Below, one piece after another: positions 43,788-64,000 of a DNA stretch of 64,000 nucleotides. The notes under the pieces are model-generated. The model saw only the letters and a list, made by a program, of their open reading frames with translations. It was not told the DNA's origin and did not search any database. Positions within the stretch are counted from its first letter, which is position 1; every line of letters begins with the position of its first letter. This stretch comes from Acidobacteriota bacterium (lineage in GTDB: Bacteria > Acidobacteriota > Blastocatellia > RBC074), in the NCBI GenBank assembly GCA_016196035.1, contig JACPYM010000022.1, positions 124,001-188,000 on the forward strand, in the 5' to 3' direction. The translations under genes and the position numbers were made by a program.

Positions 43788-46700
43788 TCACGGCAACGGC
43801 CTCACAAAAACACCATTGCCATTTGTGCCTGCAAACAAATTGTTGCCGCTGACAGCAAGCGTGAAGACGACCAGATTGGTCAATCCTTCATTGAATCCTG
43901 CCCAATTCGCGCCGTTGTCAGTCGTGCGATAGACGCCGCCAGTTGTTCCGGCAAACAAGGTCGTGAAATTCACAGTCAGGGAGAGAACAATCTGATTGCC
44001 TATGCCGTTGTTGATTTGTGTCCAATCCGCCCCGTTGTCAGTTGTGCGGTAGACGCCATTGCCATCTGTCCCAACAAATATATTTGTGCCACTCACGGCC
44101 ATGGAACGAACACGCCGATTGCTCAGGCCATTGTTGACCGGTGTCCAATTTGTGCCGTTGTCGGTCGTGCGGTAGACACCGCCAAAAGTTCCAGCAAGCA
44201 GGGTCGTACCGCTTACTGCTAAGGCATAAACAAACTGATTGTCCAGGCCGTTGTTGATCTGTGTCCAATTCGCGCCATTGTCGGTTGTACGGTAGACACC
44301 GCTGCTATTTGTCCCGGCAAACAAGGTCGTGCCGCTCACGGCCAGTGAGAGAACAATCTGATTGCTCAGGCCATTGTTGATCTGTGTCCAATTCACACCA
44401 TTGTCGGTTGTGCGATAGACGCCATTGCTATTTGTCCCAGCAAACAAGGTCGTGCCACTCACAGCCAGAGAGAAAATAAACTGATCGCCCAAGCCGTTGT
44501 TGACTGGTGTCCAATTGTTACCCCCATTTGTTGAACGAAAGACGCCACCCCCCACAGTCCCAGCGTACAAAGCTCCGCCACTGACAAGCAAAGAACTAAT
44601 AGTCCTCGCATCCCCAGTGGGGCCAGTCGTCATCCATTGCGCCGCTATTCCACCGTTGATCGTAATTGCCACCGTCTTCGTATCACTCCCCACCGGCACC
44701 CCGTTATCACTCACCCCAAAACTCACTGTCACACTCCCCACTTGATTCGCACTCGGCGTCCACGTAAAGCGCCCCGTCGTTGCGCTCGTCTGGCTAAACG
44801 CCGCGCCGCTCGGCAAGCCTGTCGCCGTCAGCGTCAACGGCTGCTCCACATCTGGGTCAACCGCAAAAACATTGAATGCGAGTTGCTGCCCCACCGTCGC
44901 TGTTTGCGCGGGCGGCACGGTCAGCACTGGTGGACGGTTGCGATTGACCGTCACGGCGACGGTTTGCGTCGTGACGGCATTCTGGCTGTCGGTCGCGCGC
45001 AACGTCAGCGTATACGCGCCCGCCGTATTCGCGCCCGGTGCCAGGCGCAAGTTGAAGACGTTCTGCAACGACACAATCGTGGCAAAGGTCGCGCCGCTCA
45101 CCGTCACCGTCACCGTTTGATTCGGGTCGGGATCGCTGACCAGCAGCGGGATGTTGCGCGTCTGGCCTTCGGTGACGGTCAGCAACGGCGGCGCAATCAG
45201 CGTCGGTGGCAGGTTGGGCTGCGTCGTGGGCGAAGGCAGCACCAGATCGGGCGTCACGCGCGTCAGTCCATTCACCACAGCGGCGATGTTGTTGCGCGTC
45301 ACGCGGTCGGTGCGGCCCGTGGGGCGCGTGAAGCTGGCTTCGAGACTGATTTGGTTGTTGCCGTTGACGGCCACATTGCGCAGCGTGAAGCTGCCATTGC
45401 CGTCAGTGAACGTTTCTTGTCCGCTGACTCTGACCAACGCGCGGCGCACCGGCGTTACGTTGTCGCTATCCACGACACGGCCCGTGACGGTGGTCAGCGC
45501 GCGCGGTAATGCGGCAAAGTAAATGCTGGTTTCGGTGATCGCATTCGCGCCCGTTTCGATGCGCGTGCCATCAGCGGATACGGTGGCCGCGCCTACGTCA
45601 ACGAATTGGCCGAGCGTTGCGCTGCCCGTAGTTTGATCGAGTTTGTAAAGCCGTGCCTGTGCATTGGCGGGCAGGCCGTCGGGATTCGGAAAAATCAGTT
45701 TAGCGCCGGGCGTGAGCTTGACCCCAAAGGGCGAAAGTTGCGCGATGGCCGAACTGAACACACCGGCAGGAAACGGCGCGGGCGTGCGGCTGTTGGAAAC
45801 CAGCGTCAAGTAAAGGCGGCCCGCCATCACGCCGGGCGGGAACACACCCGTGATGTTGTCGGGGAAGCTGAACGTGAGGCCGTTGGTGCTGATGCTGCCC
45901 GTCGGTGCGAGCACACGTTGCGCTGTCGCTACGTTTTCAACCACGCCTTCAGCCGTGCCGCCGGTTTGCGTTTGTATCGAAGCGGCCACGCCAGTGATGG
46001 GTTGCAGCGCTGCGGTGGCTTGCAGGTTGTCGCGATTGGCGGTGGCTGTGGCGAGTTTGCTGTAAGGCTGAATCGCCGGTGTCAGCGGCAGTTTTGACGG
46101 ATCAAGTTTGAGCACGCCGAAACCGGCGCTCACATCACGCAGCAAATAGGTGCCGTCATTGCGCGTCGCGGTTTTGATTGCGCCGTAGCTGACTTCGACG
46201 CCGGGCAGCGGGTTGCCATTGGTGTCGGTGACTAGGCCGCTGATGGTCGTGCGCAAAGCGACGTTGTTGGTGCTCGCGCCTTCGCCTTGTGTCGAACGCA
46301 CGGCAATACGCCCCGTTTCCGCGCCATAAGGCACGCGCACGACCAATTGCATGGCCGTGGCGGATTCAATCGCCGTGGTTTCGAGGCCGTTGATGAGCAC
46401 CAGATTGTTAGCCGAAAAACCGGTGCCATTGATCGTGAGCGTTTCGCCTGCCGTCGCCAGCGCGGGCGTAAAGCTGGTGACAGTGGGCGGATTCGCACCC
46501 GTCGTACCCGCGATTTCGATTTCGGTTTCGTTGGAGGCGAAGCCGCCGCCCAAGACCGTGAGCTTCACTCGCCCGCGTCCAAGCAAGGCGCGCGGCACTT
46601 CGACGTTGATTTGGTCTACGCCCGCCAGGCTGCCTTGTTTGGCGGCAAAGCTGGGCGTGGTTTCGATCCCGCCAATCAGCACGCGCACGTTTTCGGCGAC

Positions 46701-47426
46701 GCCATTGCCACTGTTGCCATCGCTGTTGGGCAGGTTGCGAATGCCGCAAAGAAACAACATCAAGAACACACGCTCGCCGGTCGGGCCCAGATTGATCGCT
46801 TTGGTCGTCCAGCGATTGTTGATGAGTTGCGCGATGGTCTCGGTGGTTTGCGCGTTGTTGGCCGCAACGCGCAAGGCGATGGCGGCGGGGACGCCCGCGC
46901 CGTTGGCATTGGCCGTGAAAATGGCAGGAGCCGCGTTGGTGATAGTCAGCTTGCCAGAGTGCGTGAGCGTGCCGTTGCGCAACACGTTGATGATCGCTTC
47001 GCCCGCAGTGGTGCCGGGTGGAATCAGGTAGTTGACCTGCCCCGCCGAAACAAAGAACAAGCCCGCGTTGACGCCGTTGACGGTGACCGCGACGCCGCCC
47101 AGCGTAGTTGGCAATGGTGTTGTCGTGGCCGTGGCGTTGCCGGGCGCGAGGTTCGTGCCGAAACCGGCGGCGATGCCTTCAGGTGTGAGTGCGGTTTCAA
47201 AACTGGCGGCAGAGATCGAACTGAGGGGCGGCGAGGTTTGCAACGGCGCAGTCAAGCCGTGCAAGCGGCTGCCGAAACTAAACGCGGCAAGCAACGACAG
47301 GCAGATAAACGAAAGCGCGAAAGCGCGAAAGCGCGAAAGCGCGAAAGCGCGAAAGTATGGATGGGATATTGTGGCATTGCTGAAAACCTCCTGTTGGCGT
47401 CGGCGTGAATGGCGATTCCGATACAA
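43788..47426 (-). CDS. Large secreted surface protein: TIGR03437, IPT/TIG, Ig-like domains and BNR-like propeller
   Basis: Up to 1212 residues. The frame has a signal peptide (ALSFICLSLLAAFSFGS), a TIGR03437 domain (FGTNLAPG, FFVSAGQVNYLIPPG, NANGAGVPAAI), an IPT/TIG-like part (TSFTPALATAGETLTINGTGF), carboxypeptidase-like and Ig-like repeats (LPGVEVSYGAIKTATRNDGTYL, PPVLTVPPAQTATVGQQLAF), and seven about 41-residue blades with the unit G-V-Y/F-R-T-T-D-N-G-x-N-W (last one incomplete). The start is unresolved. The best ribosome site plus ATG (47387-47392, ATG 47377) is out of frame because of an octamer tract at 47310-47355, leaving only a TTG at 47426 in frame. Probably an adhesin or envelope protein. 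Confidence 0.85.
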   Translation of the reverse strand: MYRNRHSRRRQQEVFSNATISHPYFRAFALSRFRAFALSFICLSLLAAFSFGSRLHGLTAPLQTSPPLSSISAASFETALTPEGIAAGFGTNLAPGNATATTTPLPTTLGGVAVTVNGVNAGLFFVSAGQVNYLIPPGTTAGEAIINVLRNGTLTHSGKLTITNAAPAIFTANANGAGVPAAIALRVAANNAQTTETIAQLINNRWTTKAINLGPTGERVFLMLFLCGIRNLPNSDGNSGNGVAENVRVLIGGIETTPSFAAKQGSLAGVDQINVEVPRALLGRGRVKLTVLGGGFASNETEIEIAGTTGANPPTVTSFTPALATAGETLTINGTGFSANNLVLINGLETTAIESATAMQLVVRVPYGAETGRIAVRSTQGEGASTNNVALRTTISGLVTDTNGNPLPGVEVSYGAIKTATRNDGTYLLRDVSAGFGVLKLDPSKLPLTPAIQPYSKLATATANRDNLQATAALQPITGVAASIQTQTGGTAEGVVENVATAQRVLAPTGSISTNGLTFSFPDNITGVFPPGVMAGRLYLTLVSNSRTPAPFPAGVFSSAIAQLSPFGVKLTPGAKLIFPNPDGLPANAQARLYKLDQTTGSATLGQFVDVGAATVSADGTRIETGANAITETSIYFAALPRALTTVTGRVVDSDNVTPVRRALVRVSGQETFTDGNGSFTLRNVAVNGNNQISLEASFTRPTGRTDRVTRNNIAAVVNGLTRVTPDLVLPSPTTQPNLPPTLIAPPLLTVTEGQTRNIPLLVSDPDPNQTVTVTVSGATFATIVSLQNVFNLRLAPGANTAGAYTLTLRATDSQNAVTTQTVAVTVNRNRPPVLTVPPAQTATVGQQLAFNVFAVDPDVEQPLTLTATGLPSGAAFSQTSATTGRFTWTPSANQVGSVTVSFGVSDNGVPVGSDTKTVAITINGGIAAQWMTTGPTGDARTISSLLVSGGALYAGTVGGGVFRSTNGGNNWTPVNNGLGDQFIFSLAVSGTTLFAGTNSNGVYRTTDNGVNWTQINNGLSNQIVLSLAVSGTTLFAGTNSSGVYRTTDNGANWTQINNGLDNQFVYALAVSGTTLLAGTFGGVYRTTDNGTNWTPVNNGLSNRRVRSMAVSGTNIFVGTDGNGVYRTTDNGADWTQINNGIGNQIVLSLTVNFTTLFAGTTGGVYRTTDNGANWAGFNEGLTNLVVFTLAVSGNNLFAGTNGNGVFVRPLP
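47310..47355 (-). repeat. Octanucleotide tandem repeat (CGAAAGCG, 5.75 copies) in the signal-peptide coding region
   Basis: On plus five full CGAAAGCG units and a six-base remainder. On the coding (minus) strand it reads CGCTTTCG. The unit length is not a multiple of three, so each gain or loss shifts the frame. Confidence 0.9.
47377..47392 (-). promoter_or_regulatory. Ribosome site AGGAGG and ATG out of frame with the surface-protein gene
   Basis: AGGAGG (47387-47392) is followed after nine bases by ATG (47377). From this ATG the frame goes through the octamer tract and meets TGA after 41 codons. Removing one octamer would join it to the large open frame and give a normal signal peptide. 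Confidence 0.75.
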
Positions 47427-48343: not shown

Positions 48344-48811
48344 ATGAAACCGAAACTGCATGTGGCCTTGAACGTCAACAATCTGGCGGAATCACTGGCT
48401 TTTTATAAAGCTTTTTGGGGCGCTGAACCGGTCAAGGTGCGCACGGGTTACGCCAAGTTTGATTTGGACGAGCCGGGCGTAAACCTGACGCTGAACGAGC
48501 GGCCCGTCAAAGAGGCAGGCGGCCTCAATCATCTTGGCATCCAAGTGGGCAGCACGGATGATGTGTTGGCGACTAAGCTGCGTTGGAAAGCCGCTGGCTT
48601 GTTGACCGAAGATGAAATGCAAACGAATTGTTGCTATGCGATTCAGGACAAGGTCTGGGCGACCGATCCGAACGGGTATCGCTGGGAAGTTTTCGTCGTG
48701 CTGAAAGATCAATTGCCCGAAACCGCGACGAACACTCAGGCCACGGCGTGTTGCGCGCCGCTGGCGCAGCCGGTGCAATTGAGCGGGCTTGCGCAAGGAG
48801 CGGTGCAATGA
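48344..48811 (+). CDS. arsI: ArsI/CadI-family protein (C-As lyase type)
   Basis: 155 residues. A glyoxalase-fold enzyme: LHVALNV (His6), GGLNHLGIQV (His63) and RWEVFVVL (Glu115) form the iron site and NCCYAIQDKVWATDPNG holds the vicinal Cys96-Cys97 that bind trivalent organoarsenicals. The tail has a second CC (ACCAPL). In ArsI these split the carbon-arsenic bond of methylarsenite. GGAGGG precedes the start. It overlaps the following GNAT gene (ATGA). It is controlled presumably by the divergent arsR. Confidence 0.9.
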   Translation: MKPKLHVALNVNNLAESLAFYKAFWGAEPVKVRTGYAKFDLDEPGVNLTLNERPVKEAGGLNHLGIQVGSTDDVLATKLRWKAAGLLTEDEMQTNCCYAIQDKVWATDPNGYRWEVFVVLKDQLPETATNTQATACCAPLAQPVQLSGLAQGAVQ

Positions 48812-50576: not shown

Positions 50577-53537
50577 CTAAATCTTGTACTTCTTCATCAA
50601 CAAATGCCCGTAAACCTCCGCCCCCAGCGCCAGCACCGCGCGCACCAGCATCAACGGCCCCAGCGACAGGTATTGCAGCATCACCCCGGCGAGTACCGGG
50701 AAGACCAGATCGGAGGTGTCCACGCCGCCTTCCAAAATGCCCATCGTCTTGCTGCGGCTGGAAAGATTGAAGCTGGAAACCTTGGCGGCAATCGCGCCCC
50801 AGGTCGGTTTGAAGGCGGCCTTGCCGACTTCGTCAATCGCACGCGCCAGGCCCATCATCACACCCAGCAGCGCCGTCCCCGCAAACCAGGGCACCATCCA
50901 GAACAACACCGAGGTCGCTAGATTGGCGATAGAACGCAATGCGATCACTTTGCCCGCGCCGATGCGATCCGCCAGCCAGCCAAAGAAGGGGCCAAAGAGC
51001 AGCGGCACCATCGTTTCAGAAACGACTTTGATCCAGCCCAACGCGCCGGGCGTGACTTCGAGCTTGACGGCCAGCACGGTGAAAAATTCGCCGGTGACCA
51101 TGTAGGCTGGGGCCGTCAACGCCGCGCCCAAAAAGGCGAACGAATAGACGTTGGGCTGTTGTTGCGGCGCGTGCAGCAGTCCAGTCGGCGCTTGGGCTTT
51201 GCCCTTGTCCTTCTTCTCTTTCTTTTCCTTCTTTTTCTCTTTGATGAAGACGGCGACCAGCACCAGCGAGCAGAGCGAGAAGAAGGTCGCCAGCCAGAAG
51301 ATGACGGTCAGCGCCTGGCGCAACGGCGTATTCTCGACGACTTTCGGCAAATCTTCGATGGGGATGTCGCTGAGCGGCACGGTGCGCTGTTCGACGCGCA
51401 GCACCTTGTGCGGCTTGGGATCGGCTTCGTTGCCGGGCAATACGCCGTTGACGACTTCGGTTTGCGACTTGATGACCTGTTCGACTTGTTTGCCGGATTT
51501 ATTAACTTTGTCGAGCACCGCGAAGTTGGCCGTGACGGTTTGCGTACCGACATAAAACCCAATCAACACTGTCAGCACGAAGGCAGCGAGCGCTTCGCCG
51601 ATGCCGCCCGAAGTGGATTTCGCCGTCGTGTACCAGGAATAGGCTTGCGCGATGTGTTTCTCGTCGGTGGCGTCGGCGATCATCGCGGACGCCGAGGGGC
51701 CCTTGGCCGAATCGGCAATGCCGCGCACGACGCTGACGACGAACAGCAGCGGCAGGTTGGCGAAAGAATAGAGCAAGCCGACAATCGTGCGGATCGTCAG
51801 CGAGGTCATAAACACAGGCTTCTTGCCATATTTGTCGGCCAGCGTGCCGAAGACCGAACGCAGCAGGAGCGGCACGATATTCTGGATCAGCACCAGCCCC
51901 ATCACCGAAGAGATATTCAAGCCAAAGACCAGTAGCGCATAGAGCGGCACAGCGGTTTTGATCAGACCGCTGGAAATGCGCGAAAGACAAGCTTCGATCA
52001 TCAACGCAATGACGACCGTGTTGAAGGCGCTGCCGCCTTTGTCTTCGGCCTTGGCGACAACCGAGGGCAAAGCGGCTTCGCCCGCCGGAACCTGCGCGGC
52101 TTCACGTTGCACAATGACGGGCGCGATGGGCAAGACGCCCGTCATCTTGTTAAAGGCCCGGCCCAGCACGCCCGCGCGATTGCCGGAAACGGCTTCGAGT
52201 TCGCGCGCCAAATCCAGCACCGTCGGCTGCCGCCGGTTCGGTTCTTTTGATAGCGCGCGGGTGATGACGGCAGCGACGTCTTCATCAATTTCCGGGCGGC
52301 CAAAATCGCTGAGGTCGGGCACGGGCGCAGTCAAATGCATCTGCGACAGTTCCATCGGATTGGGCGCATCGAAAGGCGGCGCGCCCGCCAGCAATTCAAA
52401 GATGATGACGCCCAACGAATAAACATCCGCGCGCGAATCCAGCGGTTTGTTCAACCACTGTTCGGGCGACATATATTGCGGCGTGCCGAAAACGCCCAAG
52501 GGGCCGGTCAGTTTCGCGCCGCCGCTGATGGATTGATCCACTTTGGCGAGGTTGTAACCGCCGACTTTGATCAGTTCTTTGCCGTTGGGGGCGGTCTCGA
52601 CAAAGATCGTTTCGGGTTTGAGATCGCGCACGACGATGCCGTTCAAGTGCGCCGTGTGCACCGCGCCCGCAATTTGATTGACGATGCTCACGACGCGCGA
52701 CAGGCTCATGCCGCGCTCTTTCAAAATCACGTCGCGCAACGTGCGGCCCGAAAGCAATTCTTCGACGATATAAACCACACCGTCTGACGTGTAGCCGAAA
52801 TCGTAAAACTGCACCGAGTTGGGATGGCGCACGCGCGCGGCGACCTGGGCCTGGCGGCGAAATCGTTCCGCCGCGACCGGGTCATTGACCAACTCCGGTT
52901 TCAGCACGCGCACAGCCACTTTGTCGCCCAACATCACACGCCGCGCGCGATACAGCGTGCCGCTGGCATCCTGCCCGATCTTCGTTTCCAGTTCATAGCG
53001 GCCATCCAGTGTGAGTGTGAGCGCTTCGGGCGTGGGCATGTTTGACGGCGGCAGCAATTCGCCACTGGCGGCCACGCGCAAGGCGGGCGGCTTTGGCACT
53101 GGCGGTTTTGGCCCAGCAGGCTGGCCGCCACGCGGCGGCGCCGGTATTTGCCCGATATTGGTCGCGTAGGAATGCGGTTCGTCAATGTGCGTTGAGAACA
53201 CATCGCTTTGCACCGCGCCGGTGGGCACTTCTTCGAGATGAAAGAGGATTTTGACGCGGCCCAGTTGCACCTTATCGCCATCCATAAGCGGGCAGGCTTC
53301 CTCAGCCGGGACTTTGCGGCTGTTGACATACACACCGTTCAGGCTGCCCAAATCGCTGATGGAATACTGGCCGTTCTGCAACCGAATGTTGGCGTGTTGA
53401 CGGCTCACGCCGCTATCGTTAATGAGGATGTCGGCGCCGGGAGCCTTGCCAATGATGACGGGATAACCCGGCAACACGGCCTCCTGTTTTGTGCCATCGG
53501 GCAGCGTAATGTAGAGCTTCGCAATGATCTTTGGCAT
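50577..53537 (-). CDS. Fusion protein: FHA domain, pseudokinase-like domain and MFS transporter
   Basis: 986 residues. FHA domain at about 25-100 ([33 protein letters not shown]; Arg/Ser/His of the phosphothreonine site kept). After a Pro-rich linker, a PknB-like kinase domain at about 180-448. The glycine loop is [10 protein letters not shown], the beta3 Lys is Arg (VAVR210), HRD is VRD (303-305), and DFG is replaced by GYN (327-329); P-E of APE is kept (358-359). This predicts a catalytically weak or inactive kinase. Residues about 500-985 are an MFS transporter with 12 or so membrane segments, and a loop near residue 715-760 is Lys-rich ([11 protein letters not shown]). It is related to the stand-alone MFS at 58176. 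First gene transcribed after the phytase/NHL genes on the same strand. Confidence 0.88.
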
Positions 53538-53662
53538 GGATAATGTCAGGGATGAAAATCAGCGGGCAAAAAACAAAAGGCAAAAGTGGCACAGCAGTTT
53601 TTCAGAAATAGAAAAGACGGTACGGCCCTTTTGCCTTTTGATTTTGCCTTTTGATTTTTGAT

Positions 53663-55096
53663 TTACTGGCCTTTCTTCTTGCCTTTCTTCTTGCCGCCCT
53701 TGCCGCCCTTTTCGGCAGCCGGTTCGGCGTCGGTGGCTGGTGTGCTGGCAGGCGCCAGCGCAGCAGCCGGCCCATTGCTCAACGCGCGCGCAATATCTGA
53801 CCAACGATAAACGGCTAGGCGGTAATTACACTGGTCGGCAACAGCGATATAAGTTTCGCCGCTGGCTTTGTCTGTGTAGGTAGCAATCGAATCAGGCGAA
53901 CAGAAATACCCGGGCGGATTGGCTTGACCCGGAATAATCTCGCCCAGTTTGACTTTGTTTTGCAGCGCTTTATTGGTCTTGTCCTCGAAGTCCACCTGCG
54001 GCGAATGGCCGACGAAACCTTTGTAACCGCCGCTGCGCGCATGCAGTGTCGGCCCAAAGCCCAGCAGGTCGCGGTTAAACGCCCCAGGACTATTCAAATC
54101 GAAAATCTGAATGTGGCCGACGCTCTCATCCACGGCAAACAGATGTTTGTTGGCAATCGCCAGCCCTTCGACCGAGCCGGAGAAAACGGATTTGCCCAGC
54201 GGCTTGCCCGCCCCATCGTTACGCGCGCCCACCAGCTTGCCTTTGTACGCGCCCGTCTCCCAATCGAAGACCTGGATGATCGAATCCTTTTCGCTGGCGA
54301 TGTAAATGTTGCCCGCCGCTTCGTCAATGGCGATGCCTTCGCAACCGTGCAGGTAGGTGTCGCCGTCGCCGCGCTGTTTGGCGAATTGCCACGCCGGATC
54401 ATCCGCGCCTTCGGGCGTGTAGCGGAAGACTTGATTGAGGTGCGCGTCCACGGCATAGACGCGATTCTTCGAGTCAATCGCGATGCCGCCGAGCTTGTCG
54501 AAATGGCGCTCACCGAAGCGCGTGCCTTTGAACACGTAATCATACGGGCCAAGCGGGCGGCCCTTGTCATCTTTGTCGCCGGGTTTGGGCGGCACGTAGG
54601 CATACGCCAAGTTCAAAATCTGATCGGTGACGAGCGCCATGCCATTGGGCGCGACGGCGATGTCCACGATCTCGCCGCCCATTGTGCCGTGGCCGAATTC
54701 GCCCAGATGGGTCTTGGTTTTGACATCCCATACCTGCACGCGCCGGTTCTTGGCGTCGGTGGCAAACAGCCAACCCTGCGGGCCAAAGGCGACGCCATCG
54801 GGTTTGTCGAAATCAGCCACGGCCTTGCCCGGCCGCCCGCTGCCAAGAATGGCGTAAGGCTCAACATTGATGCGCCAGCTTTCGCGCGCGGGGTCTTTTT
54901 CTGCCGCCGGACCTTCCACTTTGGCTGGCGGCGCGCCTGGCGCTTTGCCAGTTTCTGCCGGCTCAGCCGCCGTTTCACCAGCCGCTGCGGCTTTCTTTTT
55001 CTTCTTTTGCGGTGCGGCCTGGGTGGATGCCAACAATGCCAAGCCGGTAATGACGGCCAACACAATCACAAAGAGTTTGCGAGGGAGGGGCTTCAT
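53663..55096 (-). CDS. Secreted NHL-type beta-propeller protein
   Basis: 477 residues. MKPLPRKLFVIVLAVITGLALLASTQA is a signal peptide; a Lys/Ala/Glu linker follows, then NHL-type repeats (KPDGVAFGPQGWLFATDAKNRRVQVWD, DIAVAPNGMALVTD, LGGIAIDSKNRVYAVDAHLNQVFRY, GCEGIAIDEAAGNIYIASEKDSIIQVFD, SVEGLAIANKHLFAVDESVGHIQIFD). The C-terminus is a Lys/Gly basic tail (GKGGKKKGKKKGQ). Repeats of this sort bind ligands or form scaffolds. Start ATG 55096 follows AAAGGAG. It lies directly upstream of the fusion and downstream of the phytase gene. Confidence 0.85.
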   Translation of the reverse strand: MKPLPRKLFVIVLAVITGLALLASTQAAPQKKKKKAAAAGETAAEPAETGKAPGAPPAKVEGPAAEKDPARESWRINVEPYAILGSGRPGKAVADFDKPDGVAFGPQGWLFATDAKNRRVQVWDVKTKTHLGEFGHGTMGGEIVDIAVAPNGMALVTDQILNLAYAYVPPKPGDKDDKGRPLGPYDYVFKGTRFGERHFDKLGGIAIDSKNRVYAVDAHLNQVFRYTPEGADDPAWQFAKQRGDGDTYLHGCEGIAIDEAAGNIYIASEKDSIIQVFDWETGAYKGKLVGARNDGAGKPLGKSVFSGSVEGLAIANKHLFAVDESVGHIQIFDLNSPGAFNRDLLGFGPTLHARSGGYKGFVGHSPQVDFEDKTNKALQNKVKLGEIIPGQANPPGYFCSPDSIATYTDKASGETYIAVADQCNYRLAVYRWSDIARALSNGPAAALAPASTPATDAEPAAEKGGKGGKKKGKKKGQ

Positions 55097-55151
55097 AGAT
55101 GAACTCCTTTGCTGCGTGATGCGGGGAAATAAGATTCGATACAGCACCGAA

Positions 55152-55200
55152 AGCGGTAATGACCGGCTTCTCATTCCTGAGAAGCCCGGTCACTACCGCT
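55152..55200. repeat. Hairpin between phytase-like and NHL genes
   Basis: AGCGGTAATGACCGGCTTCTCA (55152-55173) pairs with 55178-55200 with one bulge. It may attenuate or stabilise the polycistronic transcript. No T-run. Confidence 0.6.
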
Positions 55201-55241: not shown

Positions 55242-56501
55242 CTACTTAATAATTGCGTCGAAAGGCACCAACTTGAAGTTTTGATTCTTGCTGCCTTTGT
55301 CGTTGAAGCCATCTTGCACGACGAACACGCCTTTTGAAAATTGGCCGCCCAGATTGGCCGTCGTCACATCAATGCCGTCCGTCTCTTCGACGCCGTCAAT
55401 CGCGCCGTCGCCGATGCGGAACTGCTTGACGAATTCGTTGCCGCCCTCGCGTTTGTAGACGACATAGGAGTAATTGCCTTGGCTGGAGGCAATCAAATAC
55501 CCCGTGCCGTTCGGGCCGTAAGCAATCGTCAAGCCTTCAACATCAGCGTGCAGGTGGCCGTCGCCGACTTTGCCGACCGCCACGCGCGTCGTGCCGCCTT
55601 CGGGTTCGGCGCTATACTTCCAAATGCCGACCGGCTCTTCGCTGACGTAAAAATGACCGAGTTCGTCATCGGCCACGCACCCTTCGACCACGCCGCCAAC
55701 TTTGAACCGGCGCACCGAACGGGCGTCCACCTTGCCCTGGCCGTTGTCGGTCAACTCAAATTGTTCGACCTCGCCGGATTTACTGGTCGCAAAATAAAAA
55801 GTCTTGCCGCTCAGCCGGCTCTGGTACATACACGCGCCATACACCTTGACGCCGTGCGTGACCTTGCCCGCAGCCACATTTTCGAGTTGGCGCGTTTGCG
55901 GGTTGACCTTGTAAATGGCAATCGAATTGTCGCGCCGGTCGCCCGCCGTCACCAGGGTGACTTTCTGGCCGCCCAATTTGAACCCGTTGCGTAAATCAAC
56001 GTTATCCATCAACCCATCGGCGACATATTGCAATTGTTTGCCGTTCAGGTCGTACACCGCCAGGCCGCCCATTTTGTCGGTGCCAATGATGGTGCTCAGT
56101 GAGGGGTCGGCGGGATGAACCCAGATGGCGGGATCGTCGGCGGCATCACCCCCGTGAGGTACAGGCTCGGTCTCGACGGCGGCGTGGATGGTTTCAAGCT
56201 CGTTGCCCATTGCCAACGGCGCAGCCACACGCGCCTTGTCGGTGTCTACTTTCTTGCTGTCGGATTTACTGAGCGAACGACTCTCAGATTTATGCTTGTC
56301 TTCTTTGTCTTTGTTTTCGTCTTTGTCTTTTTTGTCCTGACTCTGTTTCGCCCCCTCTTTGCTGCCGGACGGCTTGGCGTTGGTCGGCAGGTTGTTCAAT
56401 TGCGCGAGTGTCGTGCCGGAAATGAATGCGACTACGAGTGCCGCCATTTGCACCAACATCCAAACATCTCTTTGCACCGGTCTTCCAAATTTCAACTGCA
56501 T
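55242..56501 (-). CDS. Secreted beta-propeller phytase-like protein
   Basis: 419 residues. A signal segment ([20 protein letters not shown]) is followed by a Lys/Glu/Asp-rich charged linker up to about residue 95. The catalytic domain has [107 protein letters not shown] and DGIDVTT, which are the Ca2+-binding and phosphate-binding blocks of beta-propeller phytases. These hydrolyse phosphates of myo-inositol hexakisphosphate with Ca2+. Phytate specificity is not proven. GGAGG lies 12 bases before ATG. Confidence 0.88.
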
Positions 56502-56696: not shown

Positions 56697-57545
56697 TTAG
56701 CCCAGCCGCTCCATCACAAAATCGGCGATGCGTTCCCCGCCCTGCGGCACGCCTTTGTAACCGGGGAAGCAGTTGACCTCGATCACCGAATAGCCCTTCG
56801 GCGTCTTGACCAAATCCACGCCATAAAGCTCCAACCCGAACAGCTTGCCGCAACGGCGCACCAGTTCTTCCAACTCTGGGTCATCCCCAACCGGTGTGCC
56901 CAGCTTTTCTTCCTTGGTCTTCGCCGGAAAGATGCGCTTGATCGCGTGCACGTAATCGCCGATGGCGTAGGCCTTGTAATCATACGGCTCGTGCTCTTCG
57001 TATTCCTGCGCGTAAATCAGCCGGTCGCCCAGCGCCGTACCGTCTTCGCCCCCGCCATCGTCGTCAGCGACTTCGCCATCCGCCGCCCGTCGCGCCACCA
57101 AGGCATCGAATGCGGCCTCGTCCATGCACACCTCAATACCCATCCCGCGCCGCCCGCGATAAGGTTTGACCACGATGGGCATCTTTTGCACGACCGCGCG
57201 CAGCGTTTCCATCGAATCGGTCACAAAGGTGCGCGGCGTCGGGATGCCGCCCTGCAACAGCAACGTGCAAGTCAGCACCTTGTCGCGCACTTTCATCGTC
57301 GCCGGGTATTCATTGAGCAGCTTGGCCCCGGCATAGTGCGCCGCCGCCGCCAGCGATTCGGCCAGCGGCGAATGCGATTTGAACAAGTAGGCATCAAACT
57401 CGAACTTGAAATTTTCCAAGTCAATCAAACCGCTGCGCTCGGTCACGATTTCTACATCCGCGCCACGCGCTTTCAACCCGTTCAGCACGTCGTAAGTCAC
57501 CGACGTTTGGCTGCGCGGTGGTTCCATCAAAAAGCAGATACGCAT
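56697..57545 (-). CDS. ATP-grasp enzyme 1 of 4 (ITPK/RimK-like)
   Basis: 282 residues. [23 protein letters not shown] (N-terminal domain), [17 protein letters not shown] (ATP Lys and glycine loop near 135), [26 protein letters not shown] (base- and substrate-binding Lys) and [27 protein letters not shown] (metal Glu and Asn) form a complete ATP-grasp fold. The N-x-F-P-G-Y and K-x-Y/F-x-x-G-x-x-x-x-x-(V/I)-(Q/K/R) pattern resembles inositol 1,3,4-trisphosphate 5/6-kinases more than RimK (which has N-x-S-P-G-L). A DDDGGGED linker (near 165) is a small insertion. It lies next to the phytase gene. Confidence 0.85.
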
Positions 57546-57674
57546 ACGTTAAAGCTCCGATCAGATATTCACTGTGGAAAATACAGTGGAAAAATTGTTG
57601 AAAAGCCTGTGAAGATCAATTGGATTTCGCGTGGAAATCCTGTGAATGCGTGTGGAAAACTCAGTGACGATCTT

Positions 57675-57707
57675 CCCACGAAGGCACACGAAGAAGACAC
57701 GAAGGAT
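57675..57707. repeat. Left inverted repeat of the GxxExxY gene
   Basis: CCCACGAAGGCACACGAAG continuing to 57707 is the reverse complement, with few mismatches, of 58134-58165. A third copy appears folded at 59392-59466. Confidence 0.85.
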
Positions 57708-57751
57708 TGTTTTCTGCCTGGCATTCCTTCATTTGCGTCCAGTGGGACAGG

Positions 57752-58135
57752 TCATTTGACGAGTCTATGCCACTCGAGTTTGCCGCGACTGCCAAAGTTG
57801 ATCAGCACACCAACCCGCAGGCCAGTAGCATTCAGATAGTTCAGGATTTGGGCTTCTTCCCTGCTTGTTAGCTTCTCCAGCGCCTTAAGTTCGACAATGA
57901 TCTGGCCGTAACAAACCAAGTCAGCCCGGTAATCAACGCCAAGTCTTTGCCCTTTATAAAAAACCGGCAGGGACTTCTCGGCTTCAAAGGGGATTTGGCG
58001 ATTCGCCAGTTCAAGTTTTAACGCCGCGTGATAAACCGCTTCCAAGAAGCCGTTTCCCAACGCGCTATGCACCTCCATCGCGGCGCCTACGATGGCATAG
58101 ACTTCATCGCGCAAAAGCAATTCCTTCACTTCCAT
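57752..58135 (-). CDS. GxxExxY-motif PD-(D/E)XK-like nuclease
   Basis: 127 residues. VGAAMEVHSALGNGFLEAVYHAALKLEL contains the G-x-x-E-x-x-Y motif; PVFYKGQRLGVDYRADLVCYGQIIVELKA holds the Asp...E-x-K of a PD-(D/E)XK core and EEAQILNYLNATGLRVGVLINFG the last conserved part. The GAAGGAG in the right inverted repeat serves as its ribosome site, nine bases before the ATG (58135). The gene lies between inverted repeats and interrupts the ATP-grasp/MFS row. Biological role unknown. Confidence 0.85.
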   Translation of the reverse strand: MEVKELLLRDEVYAIVGAAMEVHSALGNGFLEAVYHAALKLELANRQIPFEAEKSLPVFYKGQRLGVDYRADLVCYGQIIVELKALEKLTSREEAQILNYLNATGLRVGVLINFGSRGKLEWHRLVK

Positions 58136-58165
58136 CTTCGTGTCTCCTTCGTGTGGCTTCGTGGG
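58134..58165. repeat. Right inverted repeat of the GxxExxY gene
   Basis: Complement of the left copy at 57675-57707. It ends in the start codon region of the nuclease and contains AAGGAG in the coding direction. Confidence 0.85.
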
Positions 58166-58175
58166 AGGACAATTC

Positions 58176-59378
58176 CTAGTCAGATTTCGCATTCGCGCCC
58201 CGCGCCACCACCACCGCATAAATCTCCGCCACCACCGCCATCCCCACGCGCACGCCCAACATCACCGCCACGCCCCAATGCTGCCACAAAAAACCGCCCA
58301 GCATCGGCCCGACGGTTTCGCCAATCCCTTCGCCCAAGCCGAAATAGCTCATCACGCGCGCGCGCCGTTTGCGATCCAGGCTGGCCGCTTGCGCCATCAA
58401 TGCGCCCCAGGCCGGACGAAACGCCGATTTGCCAAGCGCGTCAATGCAACTGCCCGCCGCCAGTCCCGCAAACGTCGGCACAAAGATAAACAGTAGCGAC
58501 GAACAAATGTTGGAAACTCCGCGCACCAGCAACACCAGTTTGTGATTTACGTTATCGGCCAGCCAGCCAAACAGCGGCCCGCCCACAATCGTCACCAATG
58601 GCCCGAAAGTGTAAATCCACCCGGCCTGCGCCGCCGTCAGGTGCGCGTATTCGGTCGCCAGCACCGGGAACAGGTTGTTCATCATCATCGCGGTGCTGGT
58701 AATCAAAGAACCCAAAATCAGTACGGGCAAGAATGATCTGCCGGTTTTCGCGGCCACCGGTTCAGCCTCGTCCGCCGCCTTGCCAGTCAACGGCGTGTAA
58801 TGGGGCGGCTCTTCCAGATAACGAGCCACCACGAAGAGCGGCAAAAACGACATCGCAAAGGCGATCAGGAAGACGTTTGAATAACTATCCAGCGTCCACC
58901 ACAACAACCAACCGCCCAGTGCCTTGCCCAGCGAACCGGCGGACATCTTCGCCGTCGTGTACCAACCAAAGGCCGACGCCATCTTCTTTTTATCGGCGTG
59001 TTCGGCAATCAGCGCACTGACCGACGGGTCGCGCAACGATTCCGAAAACCCGTGCAGCATCTTGATCACATACAAGTGCCACGGAGCGTTGGCAAAGATC
59101 AGCAACAATGCCATCACCGACCGCAACGCAATCGCGATGGTGAACGACGGCTTCAACCCGATACGGTCGGCCAGCCAGCCCATCGCCGGTTTGAACGTCT
59201 GCTCGACGATCAGATTGACTGAAAACAGGAAGCCCGTCGCCGTCAGGCTCAGGCCCATCTTCCGGTATGCAAAGAGCGGCAGCGCGAAGCTGATAATCCC
59301 GAACGCTAGGCGCGATAAAAAACCTTCGGCCAGGATGACGAGCAGCGAGGGCGAAACTTTACCGGACGCTTGATTCAT
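58176..59378 (-). CDS. MFS transporter, paralogous to the MFS part of the FHA fusion
   Basis: 400 residues, about 12 membrane segments. It shares with the fusion's transporter half [22 protein letters not shown] (fusion: [22 protein letters not shown]), [20 protein letters not shown] and [20 protein letters not shown] (fusion: [20 protein letters not shown]). The paired D-R-x-G-x-K motif after helix 2 is normal MFS. Start ATG 59378; the codons upstream form part of the hairpin repeat. It is probably an exporter of a product of the ATP-grasp pathway; substrate unknown. Confidence 0.87.
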
Positions 59379-59391
59379 CAAACAAAAAAAC

Positions 59392-59466
59392 CCTCCCACG
59401 AAGCCACACGAAGAATCACGAAGAGACTAACGATCTTCGTGTGCTCTTCGTGTGTCTTCGTGGGAG
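59392..59466. repeat. Empty palindrome with the GxxExxY-type ends
   Basis: CTCCCACGAAGCCACACGAAG at the left is mirrored by CTTCGTGTGTCTTCGTGGGAG at the right with only about ten bases between. It looks like the two terminal repeats of the GxxExxY element joined without cargo, between two genes of the ATP-grasp row. Confidence 0.8.
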
Positions 59467-59472
59467 AACCTC

Positions 59473-60309
59473 TTATTGCGCCAGATTCGCCGCTAAGTTT
59501 GGAGGACTCAACGTCGTCTTGCCCTGCGCATAGGCGTCAATGTAATCCGCAATCATCCCCGCCGCGCCCTCTACGCCCTTGTAGCCGGGGAAGTAGTTCA
59601 CGTCCACCACAAACGGCCCGCGCTCGCTCTCGATGATGTCCAAGCCGTACAAGCCCAAGCCGCAAACCTTGCCGACTTTCAAGGAAATCTCGCGGACTTC
59701 ATCACTGATGGGTACTGGACGGCCCGGCACTGAGAAGCTGCTTTCAGAAAACGGCTTCTGCACGCCGTGGACTTCTTCACCCGCGACGTAGATTTTCAAA
59801 TCCTCGCCGTGCCCCGGAATCGCTTCCTGAATGATCATGGGCGTGACGGGTGCGGGCAGCTTGTCAATGTCTTCGGGCGTCCGGCACAGACTGACGCCCG
59901 CGCCGCGATGGCCCATGTGCGGTTTGATGATGAGCGGATGCTGGCTGACCAATTCTTTGGCCAGACTCAGATCGCCCGTCGTCCAAGACTTCGGCGCAGG
60001 CACGCCGCCTTCCAACAACAATCGCGATGTGATGATCTTGCTCTGAATCAGCGAGCATGACGCATACGGATTCAGAATGTTCGCGCCCTGCACGTGCAAA
60101 ATGCCCGCCAACGCCAGCGCCAATTCCGTATGCGATTTCAGCACATACATATCGGCTTCGGGCCTGAGCGTGTCGGGACGTTGCAGAATCTCTTCCGCGA
60201 TGTCTTCGGTAATGGTGTAACCGCGCCCCCGCAAAATCTCGTACATCTCGACCAACACGGGCGAGGGGACGGGCGGGACGCGGCGAACGATCATAAAGTG
60301 GAGTTTCAT
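59473..60309 (-). CDS. ATP-grasp enzyme 2 of 4 (ITPK/RimK-like)
   Basis: 278 residues. [40 protein letters not shown] (ATP Lys, glycine loop), [30 protein letters not shown] and [30 protein letters not shown]. The third and fourth blocks resemble human ITPK1 (VQNFI.....YKVFVVGE....VQRP; FGIDIIINN...VIDINAFPGYEGV), which makes this one the best ITPK match of the four. Substrate unknown. It lies 94 bases upstream of the MFS. Confidence 0.86.
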
Positions 60310-60318
60310 CAGTTCACC

Positions 60319-60795
60319 TCAAAAGTTATAAAGTTGCTTAGGGACACCCAACGCCAGCGCAAGCAGCAAGCTGATCAATAGCCAAGCAATAGATGAAATC
60401 ATAGGTGAGGGTAGATGCTCCCCTAGCATCCCAATGCGATAGCGAATAATCCAATATGCAGATTGCAACGTGACAAAAATTGGCAGCCCGTAAGCCCAAC
60501 CACGTGGAATAAACAAGCTCAGTAGTTCTGGTACTCCCCATAAAACTATCAGGAGCAAGCAGGCAACAACCAGCAAAAACCCGATATATTGGGTGAGGCT
60601 TTTATTCTTTGGTTTAAAGTTCGGCGACAGCCAGTAAAGCGGAAGAAGTACCACAGGAAGAACCAAACATTTGCTGACAATTGTCGGTAGATGCCAGATT
60701 CGAGCTGGAATATCTCCTAAATACACAGACAAGAAAATGGCGACAAATTCCGCCCAACCAAGCTTTGAGCGAGTTACTGTTTTTGCGTCTTCCAT
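60319..60795 (-). CDS. Small membrane protein, low-GC orphan
   Basis: 158 residues with four hydrophobic helices (LVLPVVLLPLYWL, IGFLLVVACLLLIVLWGVPELLSLF, GLPIFVTLQSAYWII, SIAWLLISLLLALALGV). No family recognised. The DNA is visibly richer in A and T than the ATP-grasp genes on either side, which suggests recent transfer. ATG 60795 was chosen over TTG 60807. The stop is 9 bases upstream of the next ATP-grasp start. Confidence 0.65.
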   Translation of the reverse strand: MEDAKTVTRSKLGWAEFVAIFLSVYLGDIPARIWHLPTIVSKCLVLPVVLLPLYWLSPNFKPKNKSLTQYIGFLLVVACLLLIVLWGVPELLSLFIPRGWAYGLPIFVTLQSAYWIIRYRIGMLGEHLPSPMISSIAWLLISLLLALALGVPKQLYNF

Positions 60796-60850
60796 AGCCT
60801 TAACCAAACAACTTTGCAGTAAGAGCGGCCGGCGTTAGAATGTCGCCGCT

Positions 60851-61219
60851 ATGTCAACAGCACCTTTAATGAGCAAAGAATATGTCACCAAACTTGAGTT
60901 CGAGTTTGAAGGCCAGCCCCGCATCGCCTACCGCATCGCGGGCACGCGCATCTCGCTCGATTCGGTTATTTACGCCTGGCGGCAAGGGGAATCGGCAGAC
61001 GGCATCGTGGATTGCTACCCATCGCTCACTCAGGAACAAGTCCACGGGGCGCTTGCGTTCTACCTTGCTAACCAAGCCGAATTTGACGAGTACTTGCGGC
61101 AAGGTCAAGAAGACTTCGAGCGGATGCGCCAAAAAAGCCAGGAAGATATGCGTCAAAATCGCCCGGAGCTTTACCAAAAGTTGCAAGCAGCCAAAGCGCA
61201 ACGCCGCCAAGCCGCGTGA
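60851..61219 (+). CDS. DUF433 antitoxin-like protein
   Basis: 122 residues. GQPRIAYRIAGTRISLDSVIYAWRQGESADGIVDCYPSLTQEQVHGALAFYLAN is the DUF433 domain (helix-turn-helix type, found as antitoxin of DUF5615). The C-terminus is a charged helix (EDFERMRQKSQEDMRQNRP). It shares TGATG with the next gene. It is on the opposite strand to the surrounding ATP-grasp row. Confidence 0.85.
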   Translation: MSTAPLMSKEYVTKLEFEFEGQPRIAYRIAGTRISLDSVIYAWRQGESADGIVDCYPSLTQEQVHGALAFYLANQAEFDEYLRQGQEDFERMRQKSQEDMRQNRPELYQKLQAAKAQRRQAA

Positions 61220-61578
61220 TGCCCCTTATGCCAATTCGTTTCCAAGCCGATTACGACTTCAACCACAGAATCATCCGCGCGGTGCGCACTTGTGTTCCGG
61301 CCATAGATTTTCAAACTGCCCACCGCGCCCAACTCATCGGTTTGCCTGACAGAGAGGTCTTATCCGTTGCTGCGTTTGAAGGGCGCATTCTGGTTTCGCA
61401 CGATGTGACCACCATGCCCAGCCACTTCGCTGCTTTCATCACTCAACAAAACAGCCCAGGCGTACTGCTTATTCCGCAAAGCCTCTCCATCAGCCGGGCC
61501 GTCGAAGACCTTGTGATCATCTGGAGCGCGTCTGAGCCTGAAGAATACGCCAACACCATTACTTGGCTACCGCTTTGA
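61219..61578 (+). CDS. DUF5615 PIN-like toxin
   Basis: 119 residues. IRFQADYDFNHRIIRAV, REVLSVAAFEGRILVSHDVTTMPSHFAAF and VLLIPQSLSISRAVEDLVIIW match DUF5615, a PIN-domain-like ribonuclease group with Asp residues at similar places (D near residue 11 and SHD near 61). It overlaps the convergent ATP-grasp gene 3 by 20 bases. The pair is a probable toxin-antitoxin module. Confidence 0.83.
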   Translation: MPLMPIRFQADYDFNHRIIRAVRTCVPAIDFQTAHRAQLIGLPDREVLSVAAFEGRILVSHDVTTMPSHFAAFITQQNSPGVLLIPQSLSISRAVEDLVIIWSASEPEEYANTITWLPL

Positions 61579-62353
61579 GAATGTAATCCGCCAGCAACTC
61601 CGCCGCATCCGGCACGCCCTTAAACCCCGGAAACGTGTTGATGTCCACCACGAACGGCTTCCCTTCTGACGTGATGATGTCCAGGCCGAACAGGTCAATG
61701 CCGAACGCCTGCCCGCACGCCAGACAAATCTGCCGCATCTCTTCGGGCACCTCGAAGGCTTCGCCCAGCTTGTCTTCCAGCGTCTTGGGCGGCCAGACGC
61801 GGCGCACGCCGAAGACCTTGTCGCCGATCACGTACAGCTTGTAATCGCGCCCGTCCGGCTTGTGCAGCCGTTGCGCAAAGAACAGATCATCCGAGGTGAC
61901 GTTCGCCAGTTCGTCCGCACTGTGAATCATCTGCACGCCACGCCCTTGCGAAGCGCCCCAAAATGGTTTGACGACCAGCGGCCCACGGGTGAGCAAGCCC
62001 GCCAACTGTTCGGCCTTCCCGGCGAAAAAGGTCGCGGGCAACGGCACGCCCGCGCGTTGCAGCACTTGCGTAGACAGAATCTTGTCCTTCATCAGCACAA
62101 CAGTCGGGTACGGATTGAGAATCCGCGCGCCCAGCCCGTGCAGCAATCCAGCGTAACCAAGCGCTGTCTCGGTGCCTGCTTTGAGCAAATACAGATCGTG
62201 CGTGTTTTGGATAGCGGCGACGTCATTGCACTGCGCGTCTGGATAGATCATCTCGACGACATGGCCGCGCGCGGTCAGCAAGTCCGCCGCCTGTTGCATC
62301 ACGGAGCCGCTGCGGCCCGCTTTTTCCTGGGTAGAGATAACGCCGATTTTCAT
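61559..62353 (-). CDS. ATP-grasp enzyme 3 of 4 (ITPK/RimK-like)
   Basis: 264 residues. LYLLKAGTETALGYAGLLHGLGA, LVVKPFWGASQGRGVQM (ATP Lys and glycine loop), DYKLYVIGDKVFGVRRVWPPKTLEDK and GIDLFGLDIITSEGKPFVVDINTFPGFKGVPD. The last two blocks match the ITPK-like pattern described for copies 1 and 2. Its 3' end overlaps the DUF5615 gene coming from the other strand. Substrate unknown. Confidence 0.85.
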   Translation of the reverse strand: MKIGVISTQEKAGRSGSVMQQAADLLTARGHVVEMIYPDAQCNDVAAIQNTHDLYLLKAGTETALGYAGLLHGLGARILNPYPTVVLMKDKILSTQVLQRAGVPLPATFFAGKAEQLAGLLTRGPLVVKPFWGASQGRGVQMIHSADELANVTSDDLFFAQRLHKPDGRDYKLYVIGDKVFGVRRVWPPKTLEDKLGEAFEVPEEMRQICLACGQAFGIDLFGLDIITSEGKPFVVDINTFPGFKGVPDAAELLADYILKAVAK

Positions 62354-62692
62354 GGGTTGCTATGTACTCAAGCCCCAACGGGGCGAAATTCAATAGCCAG
62401 GGGCAAAACGCAGTGACGCCCCTGGTTGGTGGCGGTAAATTTGACAAGCCCTGAAGGGGCGAAATTCCGCTTATGTATTGCGCCCTTTCAGGGCTTTTCA
62501 ATTGCTTGACCTGCTGACCTAGTACTCCATCAAGCTGTAAGTGATGGATGCTGAGAGCGCATCCGGGATGTAGGGCGGGATTAAATCCCGCCCTACATCC
62601 CTCATTTTCAGCTTGATGGAGTACTAGGGCGTTGCCCTAGGCTTTTCTATTTTGCCCCGTTGGGGCGGCAGAACATTTGCGCCGAACCACAA
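62354..62692. repeat. Nested intergenic repeats: GCCCCAACGGGGC family with an inserted inverted repeat
   Basis: No gene. Outer GCCCCAACGGGGC (62372-62384) and GCCCCGTTGGGGC (62654-62666) are complementary. Between them are GCCCTGAAGGGGCG (62448) and CGCCCTTTCAGGGC (62481) and, nested within, CTAGTACTCCATCAAGCTG (62519-62537) with its exact complement at 62609-62627, which encloses GGATGTAGGGCGGGATT / complement (62566-62600). It looks like one repeat inserted into another. Confidence 0.75.
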
Positions 62693-63085
62693 TTACGGCA
62701 ACCGCCACGGTGGGTTGAGCCGATTCTCGCCTGCGTAATACAGACAAATCTGGTTGCCATCGGGATCGCGCAAATAACATTCACGCCAAAGCCAGGGTTG
62801 ATCCACTGGCTCGCTTTCAAATTCAATGCCTTGTTCTTTCAACTCTGCCACCCGCGCATCCAAATCAGCACACTCGAAATAGACCACGACACCGGGTTGC
62901 ACTGGCGCGTGCTCTGCCAAATGAATCGAGAAGGTCGCGCCGCCTTCCGGGCATTCAAACCGTGCGTATTTCGGCAGGTCTTCGACAATCTGCCGCAAAC
63001 CGAGCTTGCAGTAAAACTGGATTGCGGCGGCTACGTTGGTGGATGGCACGGTGACTTGGTTTAAGTTCATCTTGACGCTACTCAT
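62693..63085 (-). CDS. VOC-superfamily (glyoxalase/bleomycin resistance-like) protein
   Basis: 130 residues. LNQVTVPSTNVAAAIQFYCKLGLRQIVED, PGVVVYFECADLDARVAELKEQGIEF and CYLRDPDGNQICLYYAGEN match the VOC fold (H/Q...E...D-P-D-G-N). Metal ligands differ from classic glyoxalase I because His is replaced by Gln at the first position. Role unknown. The start overlaps the broken hicA gene by 8 bases. Confidence 0.83.
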   Translation of the reverse strand: MSSVKMNLNQVTVPSTNVAAAIQFYCKLGLRQIVEDLPKYARFECPEGGATFSIHLAEHAPVQPGVVVYFECADLDARVAELKEQGIEFESEPVDQPWLWRECYLRDPDGNQICLYYAGENRLNPPWRLP

Positions 63086-63284
63086 TGCTCCCGGCCTGCT
63101 TCAGCGGTGGGATGCCCAAGTCTTTGCAAATCTTCAAGACCAACACATCTTTGATTTCAGTATGGCGTGGCACGGACGAACGGCGGTTGAGCGCTGGATT
63201 TTGCCACCAGGAATGGCGCGCACCTTCACGCACCAACTCACAGCCTTATTCGCGCAGATAGCGAAGTAAGGCGTGTCGCTTCAT
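63078..63284 (-). pseudogene. hicA: HicA toxin gene with an internal stop
   Basis: The frame reads MKRHALLRYLRE, then TAA at 63246-63248, then GCELVREGARHSWWQNPALN and VPRHTEIKDVLVLKICKDLGI, the expected HicA sequence with its G-x-x-H-S-like motif. Only the one stop codon breaks it. hicB upstream is intact and overlaps it by 4 bases. The toxin is probably not made, although readthrough is possible. Confidence 0.85.
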
Positions 63285-63493
63285 ACGGCCAACTGCTCTT
63301 GTTGGTAGCCAGCGCCAGCGGCCAAAAAGGCTTCCTGGCGATTGAACTCTAACGCCTCCTGCAACGTGACTTTGAGGCTTTCCAGCAATTCCTCGCGTGT
63401 GGCTTCCTGGCAATTGACGCCTGAAACTTCGGCAATCCAGCCGATCCACCAATCGCCGTCCTGTTGCACAATCGCGGTGTATTCGTTTTTCAT
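63281..63493 (-). CDS. hicB: HicB-type antitoxin (partner toxin is broken)
   Basis: 70 residues. YTAIVQQDGDWWIGWIAEVSGVNCQEATREELLESLKVTLQEALEFNRQ is a typical HicB fold (I..DGDWW.GWI.E..G.n.Q..T.eE....LK..L.Eal). GAGGAGGA precedes the ATG. It could serve as antidote against the other HicA (12752), or be a remnant; cross-talk is not shown. Confidence 0.85.
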   Translation of the reverse strand: MKNEYTAIVQQDGDWWIGWIAEVSGVNCQEATREELLESLKVTLQEALEFNRQEAFLAAGAGYQQEQLAV

Positions 63494-63507
63494 CACTTCC
63501 TCCTCAA

Positions 63508-64000
63508 TCATTGCGTGGTCACCCGCCGCTCTACAAAATCCGCCAGCAACTCGCTGCCATTCGGCACGCCCGTGTAATTCGGATAATCGTTGATCTCGAT
63601 CACCAGCGGCCCCTCGTCCGTAATGATCGTGTCCACGCCAAACAGTTCCAAGCCGAACAGCTTGCCACAACGGCGTCCCAGGTCTTCCAGTTCGGGCGTA
63701 ATCTTGACCAGCCCGGCGCGCGAGGGTTCGCCTTCCACACGTGGATTGAAGGGTGATTCTTTGCGCACGCCCCAAACCTGCTCGCCCGCGCCGTACAGTT
63801 TCAAATCGTAACCATCCGTCTTGAAATAGCGTTGCGCCAGCGCGACGGGTTCGACCCAATCGGTCGCGGCCATTTCTTCCGGCGTTTGCACGACCAGCAA
63901 GCCGCGCGAGTTGTCGCCGAAGATCGGTTTCAGAATGATCGGGTAATCAGCGGCGGGGATGTTGGCGGCCAGTTGCGCGATGCTGCCGAAATAGGTTTGC
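63508..64000 (-). CDS. ATP-grasp enzyme 4 of 4 (ITPK/RimK-like), start outside the window
   Basis: Only the C-terminal 163 residues are visible; the gene continues past 64000. IILKPIFGDNSRGLLVV (ATP Lys, glycine loop), DGYDLKLYGAGEQVWGVRKESPFNP and FGLELFGVDTIITDEGPLVIEINDYPNYTGVPNG. The last block has E-I-N-D-Y-P-N-Y, a slight change of the N-x-F-P-G-Y pattern. It is in the same orientation as the other three. Confidence 0.8.
   Translation of the reverse strand, partial: QTYFGSIAQLAANIPAADYPIILKPIFGDNSRGLLVVQTPEEMAATDWVEPVALAQRYFKTDGYDLKLYGAGEQVWGVRKESPFNPRVEGEPSRAGLVKITPELEDLGRRCGKLFGLELFGVDTIITDEGPLVIEINDYPNYTGVPNGSELLADFVERRVTTQ

Follow-up and report, generated by a model that had tools for sequence, protein, structure and literature searches.

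What role a signalling module could play in one polypeptide with a membrane transporter is the question raised by a single gene in the 64,000-nucleotide stretch of Acidobacteriota DNA analysed here (the window). A sequence-only reading had described an open frame of 986 codons in which an intact FHA domain, a Ser/Thr-kinase-like domain with altered catalytic motifs, and a complete transporter of the major facilitator superfamily (MFS) are joined. It had predicted control of the transporter by phosphothreonine binding through a pseudokinase scaffold, and had proposed a domain search, structure prediction, and a look for other genomes with the same domain order as checks. An assembly join between the kinase and MFS parts had been named among the findings that would overturn the claim.

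Three domains in a single open frame

The position previously given for the gene, 50577 to 53537, was correct, and the strand, which had not been given, was found to be minus. Read from 53537 to 50577, the gene (P0001, 986 residues) forms one open frame of 986 codons with no interruption, and the plus strand of the same interval contains stops. The domain search placed all three parts over their Pfam cut-offs, confirming their union in one frame. The FHA match covers residues 27-93 (53259 to 53459, minus strand; E 6e-18, 65.5 bits vs a cut-off of 20.7), and the Pkinase match covers residues 181-436 (52230 to 52997, minus strand; E 2e-35). A linker of residues 453-503 (52029 to 52181, minus strand) leads from the pseudokinase to the first transmembrane helix (TM1) of the MFS domain, residues 504-986 (50580 to 52028, minus strand), in which MFS_1 matches in two stretches from residue 516 (E 3.5e-27, 95.7 bits vs a cut-off of 33.4). 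The transporter is complete, as had been claimed, with 12 transmembrane helices in the predicted model and with motif A in the loop between TM2 and TM3 (GxLaDrxGrk); a matching motif is present in all nine fused copies known. The topology was read from the model and hydropathy. Confidence in the MFS part of the model is low (block means of about 31-77), so that gating contacts are unreadable from it. A Foldseek search with the whole model returned kinases only among the matches listed.

A search of 58 related genomes revealed eight additional full-length copies, with the same domain order in one frame and BLASTP identities to the window copy of 51-62%. The nine fusion-bearing genomes, including that of the window, belong to three families of one Acidobacteriota class. 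Because eight other genomes share the order in one frame, an assembly join, or a read-through joining two separate genes, is ruled out, and the fusion is genuine. Used as a profile against 162 genomes of the class, the MFS part recovered the nine fused copies, and its other matches at E<=1e-15 were all a stand-alone MFS of the same gene cluster (see below). A protein of FHA-pseudokinase-MFS architecture was not found in the open-access literature searched; the architecture is real, conserved within one Acidobacteriota class, and apparently undescribed. A second candidate MFS fusion, a 1234-codon frame at C12, was rejected, as the ORF listing shows an ordinary stand-alone MFS.

Each of the eight orthologues has a Cys-rich segment at its N-terminus (CPxCxxE..D..xFCxxDG; K-x-C-P-x-C ... 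F-C-x-x-D-G), for which no Pfam match over cut-off was obtained. The window copy starts after this segment and hence is without it; the segment was not found in any of three frames of the upstream interval, 53538-53662. Elsewhere in the window, 43788-47426 encodes a 1212-residue protein with TIG, carboxypeptidase-regulatory, Ig-like, and BNR/sortilin repeats and the Solibacter C-terminal domain TIGR03437, and 48344-48811 encodes an ArsI/CadI-type VOC metalloenzyme (NF041414, over its cut-off).

Catalytic loss in the kinase domain and an altered FHA signature

The substitutions named by the sequence-only reading, Arg for the beta3 Lys (VAVR210), VRD for HRD, and GYN for DFG, were all present in the alignment, together with SPEQ at the APE position. 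Three others had been missed: Asp replaces the second glycine-loop Gly, Gln the alphaC Glu, and Thr the catalytic-loop Asn. From the residue set of active kinases (beta3 Lys, alphaC Glu, HRD Asp, catalytic Asn, and DFG Asp), the window copy keeps the HRD Asp only, with its following Lys, and by these residues it does not belong to the active Ser/Thr protein kinases. The DFG Asp, alphaC Glu, HRD His, and catalytic Asn are absent from all nine orthologues, the beta3 Lys from eight, and the HRD Asp from three. The nearest unfused kinases found (L010, 48%; L011, 45%) are canonical, with HRDLKPEN, DFG, VAVK or VAIK, and the alphaC Glu, which indicates that catalytic loss belongs to the fusion lineage. 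Every sequence criterion thus bore out the pseudokinase call, and the alignment argues for a long-standing pseudokinase whose catalytic residues have been lost throughout the fusion family.

Pairwise dN/dS values were 0.04-0.21 for the pseudokinase vs 0.08-0.23 for the MFS part, low ratios that show purifying selection at the sequence level. Since the pseudokinase values are as low as those of the transporter, the domain is presumably maintained for a role other than phosphotransfer. In the predicted structure the kinase part adopts a two-lobed, PknB-like fold, and Foldseek matched it to PknB/PknA kinase domains (6b2p, TM 0.89 by target length, 32% identity). PADLOC systems such as PD-T4-6 also matched the kinase part; these hits reflect the kinase fold in general and were set aside, and none of the neighbouring cluster genes gave one.

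In canonical FHA domains, the Arg of the Gly-Arg motif contacts the phosphate. The FHA fold is supported by the Pfam match; the window domain has Lys at this position (GK), the aligned FHA domains of the other eight have Lys, Ser, or Ala, and Arg is never present (0/9). The window FHA retains the Ser, His, and Asn-Gly, and therefore shows only part of the canonical phosphothreonine-reader signature (Gly-Arg, Ser-x-x-His, and Asn-Gly); the L018 FHA is also without Asn-Gly. Calling the domain intact was thus an overstatement. With the Arg absent in all nine and Asn-Gly absent in L018, the domain may bind phosphothreonine weakly or not at all. Lys also occupies the Arg position in further FHA domains encoded by the genome, which suggests that loss of the Arg would weaken phosphothreonine binding without excluding it. 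Of the three domains, the FHA has diverged most (42% between the window copy and L013). The predicted control of the transporter through phosphothreonine binding is plausible. The G015 orthologue (L019:7806-11306) carries a second FHA domain, in which GR is intact, and retains the beta3 Lys; its sequence suggests a less degraded state of the fusion family.

The linker before TM1 is variable except for T466-G467, which is invariant in 9/9 copies of the alignment and absent from the tails of the unfused kinases looked at. A second candidate site, S/T-G-E-L, lies between the FHA domain and the pseudokinase, and has Ser, not Thr, in the window copy. T466 would be the best candidate phosphosite.

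A conserved ATP-grasp cluster with a paralogous transporter

The main functional clue is a conserved cluster that the sequence-only reading had not seen. When the ORFs of nine loci were compared, a common order emerged: the genes for ATP-grasp A, B, and C come first, followed by a stand-alone MFS and ATP-grasp D, and the fusion comes last, often preceded by genes for a phytase-like beta-propeller and an NHL protein. In the window all of these genes lie on the minus strand. ATP-grasp A (63524 to 64000) is partial, extending past the window end to about C22:188330 (L052 3330-2524, 61% to P0008). It is followed by ATP-grasp B (61559 to 62353), ATP-grasp C (59473 to 60309), the stand-alone MFS (58176 to 59399), and ATP-grasp D (56697 to 57545), which is 76-90% identical between genomes. 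The beta-propeller phytase-like protein (55242 to 56501; PF02333, E 4e-103) is linked in seven of nine loci, plus a partial copy in G001, and the NHL-repeat protein (53663 to 55174), the gene next to the fusion, is also present in G003, G008, and G009. A PD-(D/E)XK_3 (GxxExxY) protein, flanked by ATP-grasp D and the stand-alone MFS, is encoded at 57752-58219; no counterpart was seen at the same place in the other loci compared.

The co-occurrence of fusion and ATP-grasp enzymes is almost perfect. ATP-grasp D was found in nine of 58 relatives, eight of which also have the fusion, so that both occur together in eight of the 58. The exceptions, G001 and G009, are fragmented assemblies with contigs ending in or near the cluster: the G001 contig, the ninth with ATP-grasp D, ends inside the phytase gene, and the 9 kb contig with the G009 fusion stops short of ATP-grasp D. 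In large samples of the phylum, the fusion was present in 4/396 genomes of an even sample and ATP-grasp D in 4/297, and these were the same four genomes. ATP-grasp D stands directly upstream of the fusion in G031 and G015.

All four ATP-grasp enzymes are RimK-like, with Pfam RimK matches over cut-off and a RimK/LysX-like fold. The model of ATP-grasp C matched RimK best (Z 23.8, 254 residues, rmsd 2.9), with LysX also best, followed by PPIP5K and ITPK1 (Z 18.6). Given this fit, amide ligation is the likelier chemistry, as judged from the model, and phosphorylation is also possible. An inositol-phosphate pathway, suggested by the phytase and an ITPK-like C-terminal motif, was considered and is unsupported: PF05770 (ITPK) matches only the C-terminal 60-70 residues of the cluster enzymes, RimK and LysX give matches of greater length and strength, and a phytase gene was not found in the G015 contig. 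The genes at 56697-64000 (minus strand), four paralogous RimK-like ATP-grasps and a dedicated MFS, would represent a biosynthetic or modification pathway of a few Acidobacteriota. The cluster showed no gene for a kinase or a phosphatase, and a search of the open-access literature on ATP-grasp/MFS clusters found nothing specific.

The stand-alone MFS is a paralogue of the fused one; at 31-36% identity, each is the only close relative found for the other. Only in the fused MFS are TM5 and TM6 separated by a conserved insert of some 55-65 residues (about residues 667-721 in the window copy), modelled as periplasmic beta strands; the fused protein also has a Lys-rich cytoplasmic loop after TM6 (residues 765-796). 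Between the window copy and L013, the fused MFS is 74% conserved and the stand-alone MFS 66%. The best PDB sequence match of the fused MFS was NorA (E 6e-6), over TM1-4 only. In G015, a stand-alone MFS of this clade was not found at E<=1e-20, and the fused protein is the only MFS of the clade, placed directly after ATP-grasp D. It is thus likely to be the working transporter of that cluster, which it probably serves alone.

Proposed function of the fusion and its relation to known systems

The best explanation of these findings, to which we assign a probability of about 0.5, is that the fusion is an MFS transporter dedicated to the cluster, that it probably works as an exporter, and that a docking module of FHA domain and pseudokinase gates it without catalysis. 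The transporter would serve the small-molecule pathway of the four adjacent RimK-like ATP-grasp genes and would most likely export its product; export is favoured because the nearest solved MFS relatives are NorA-type drug exporters. Docking and gating would be the work of the cytoplasmic N-terminal part, made up of the FHA domain and the catalytically dead kinase fold. A Thr or Ser, for example T466 or the S/T-G-E-L site, would be phosphorylated in trans by one of the cell's Ser/Thr kinases, and the FHA domain and pseudokinase would then engage the phosphosite in cis, or a phosphorylated partner, setting transporter activity. Several observations weigh against this explanation: the loss of the FHA Arg in all nine copies and of Asn-Gly in L018, the low conservation of the FHA domain, the Ser at the S/T-G-E-L site of the window copy, the lack of a kinase or phosphatase gene in the cluster, and, with respect to the cargo class, the resemblance of RimK-like enzymes to inositol-phosphate kinases as well. 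A more specific, self-contained phospho-switch, in which phosphorylation of T466 by a trans-acting kinase leads to an FHA/pseudokinase clamp in cis that gates an MFS secreting the product of the new ATP-grasp pathway, is doubtful as a complete scheme.

The main rival reads the fused protein as a sensor derived from an MFS (a transceptor with UhpC-like logic), in which the MFS part and its periplasmic insertion sense a ligand, the pseudokinase and FHA domain provide the output, and the stand-alone MFS carries out transport. The paralogous second MFS in the same cluster, together with the periplasmic insertion and cytoplasmic signalling part confined to the fused protein, keeps this possibility alive, if clearly less probable than a gated transporter. 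It is opposed by G015, where fusion and ATP-grasps occur without a stand-alone MFS of the clade, by the retention of motif A, and by the conservation of the fused MFS, which is at least as high as that of its paralogue. Alternatively, the FHA domain and pseudokinase might only locate or assemble the transporter, acting as a scaffold that draws the ATP-grasp enzymes into a channelling complex, with no switching by phosphorylation. Such a scaffold would be consistent with loss of the FHA Arg from beside a conserved pseudokinase and with the tight linkage to four ATP-grasp genes (D directly precedes the fusion in G015 and G031); however, the retention of the other FHA signature residues (Ser, His, and mostly Asn-Gly) and the invariance of T466 in the linker make it unlikely. 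It is more improbable still that the kinase fold binds nucleotide or catalyses another reaction through which the transporter is controlled, either a SelO/SidJ-like reaction or the alternative ATP binding proposed for the DYD and DLHK pseudokinases. In its beta3 Arg and its lack of the alphaC Glu the domain is like the DYD pseudokinases, which have been modelled with bound ATP (PMC12599244), and the window copy retains the HRD Asp with its following Lys. However, the fusion is without the DYD motif, including its compensating second Asp, and without the catalytic-loop Asn, and the DFG Asp has been lost in 9/9 copies and the HRD Asp in 3/9. Descriptions of DYD proteins come from actinobacteria and firmicutes.

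How far bacteria control MFS transporters directly through Ser/Thr phosphorylation is, to our knowledge, poorly known. With a signal reader, a dead kinase, and a transporter inseparable in one chain, such wiring can be examined in a single protein, and the linked cluster of four ATP-grasps would be a pathway with its own dedicated transporter.

Known systems provide partial parallels. UhpC is an MFS paralogue that acts as a sensor beside the transporter UhpT and works with a histidine kinase. Two MFS paralogues, one of them possibly a sensor by this analogy, likewise occur in the present locus, whereas UhpC has no fused FHA or kinase domain. EssB/YukC of type VII secretion shows that a membrane-bound, non-catalytic pseudokinase can serve as a scaffold in export (PMC12599244), but it is fused to neither a 12-TM transporter nor an FHA domain. 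In Rv1747 of Mycobacterium tuberculosis, FHA domains are covalently linked to a putative exporter, and FHA I binds a pThr protein, which was proposed to lower transporter function (PMC5549992); in contrast to the fusion, the transporter is of the ABC type, there is no kinase fold, and the cognate active kinase, PknF, is encoded in the operon.

A close likeness is to MviN (MurJ) and FhaA of M. tuberculosis, where a membrane transporter or flippase carries, on its cytoplasmic side, a pseudokinase whose catalytic motifs are degraded, and phosphorylation of the tail after the pseudokinase recruits the FHA domain of FhaA (PMC12599244). In MviN, however, the pseudokinase is placed after the transporter, the FHA domain resides on a separate protein, and the pseudokinase is of the ActPs3 subfamily, with an activation-loop deletion. 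The transporter belongs to the MOP/MATE-like superfamily, unlike the MFS found here. The window pseudokinase falls outside ActPs3, lacking the VALT / Lsidhpsr / Y-- motifs, and no activation-loop deletion was evident in it by comparison with unfused kinases. The earlier view that a transporter covalently tied to such a sensor is rarely described thus holds for the exact architecture, whereas the tie between transporter and module has precedents in MviN and Rv1747. By analogy, the fusion resembles MviN-FhaA condensed into one chain, and the family suggests that the logic of MviN-FhaA and Rv1747 is also used in Acidobacteriota, apparently by independent assembly.
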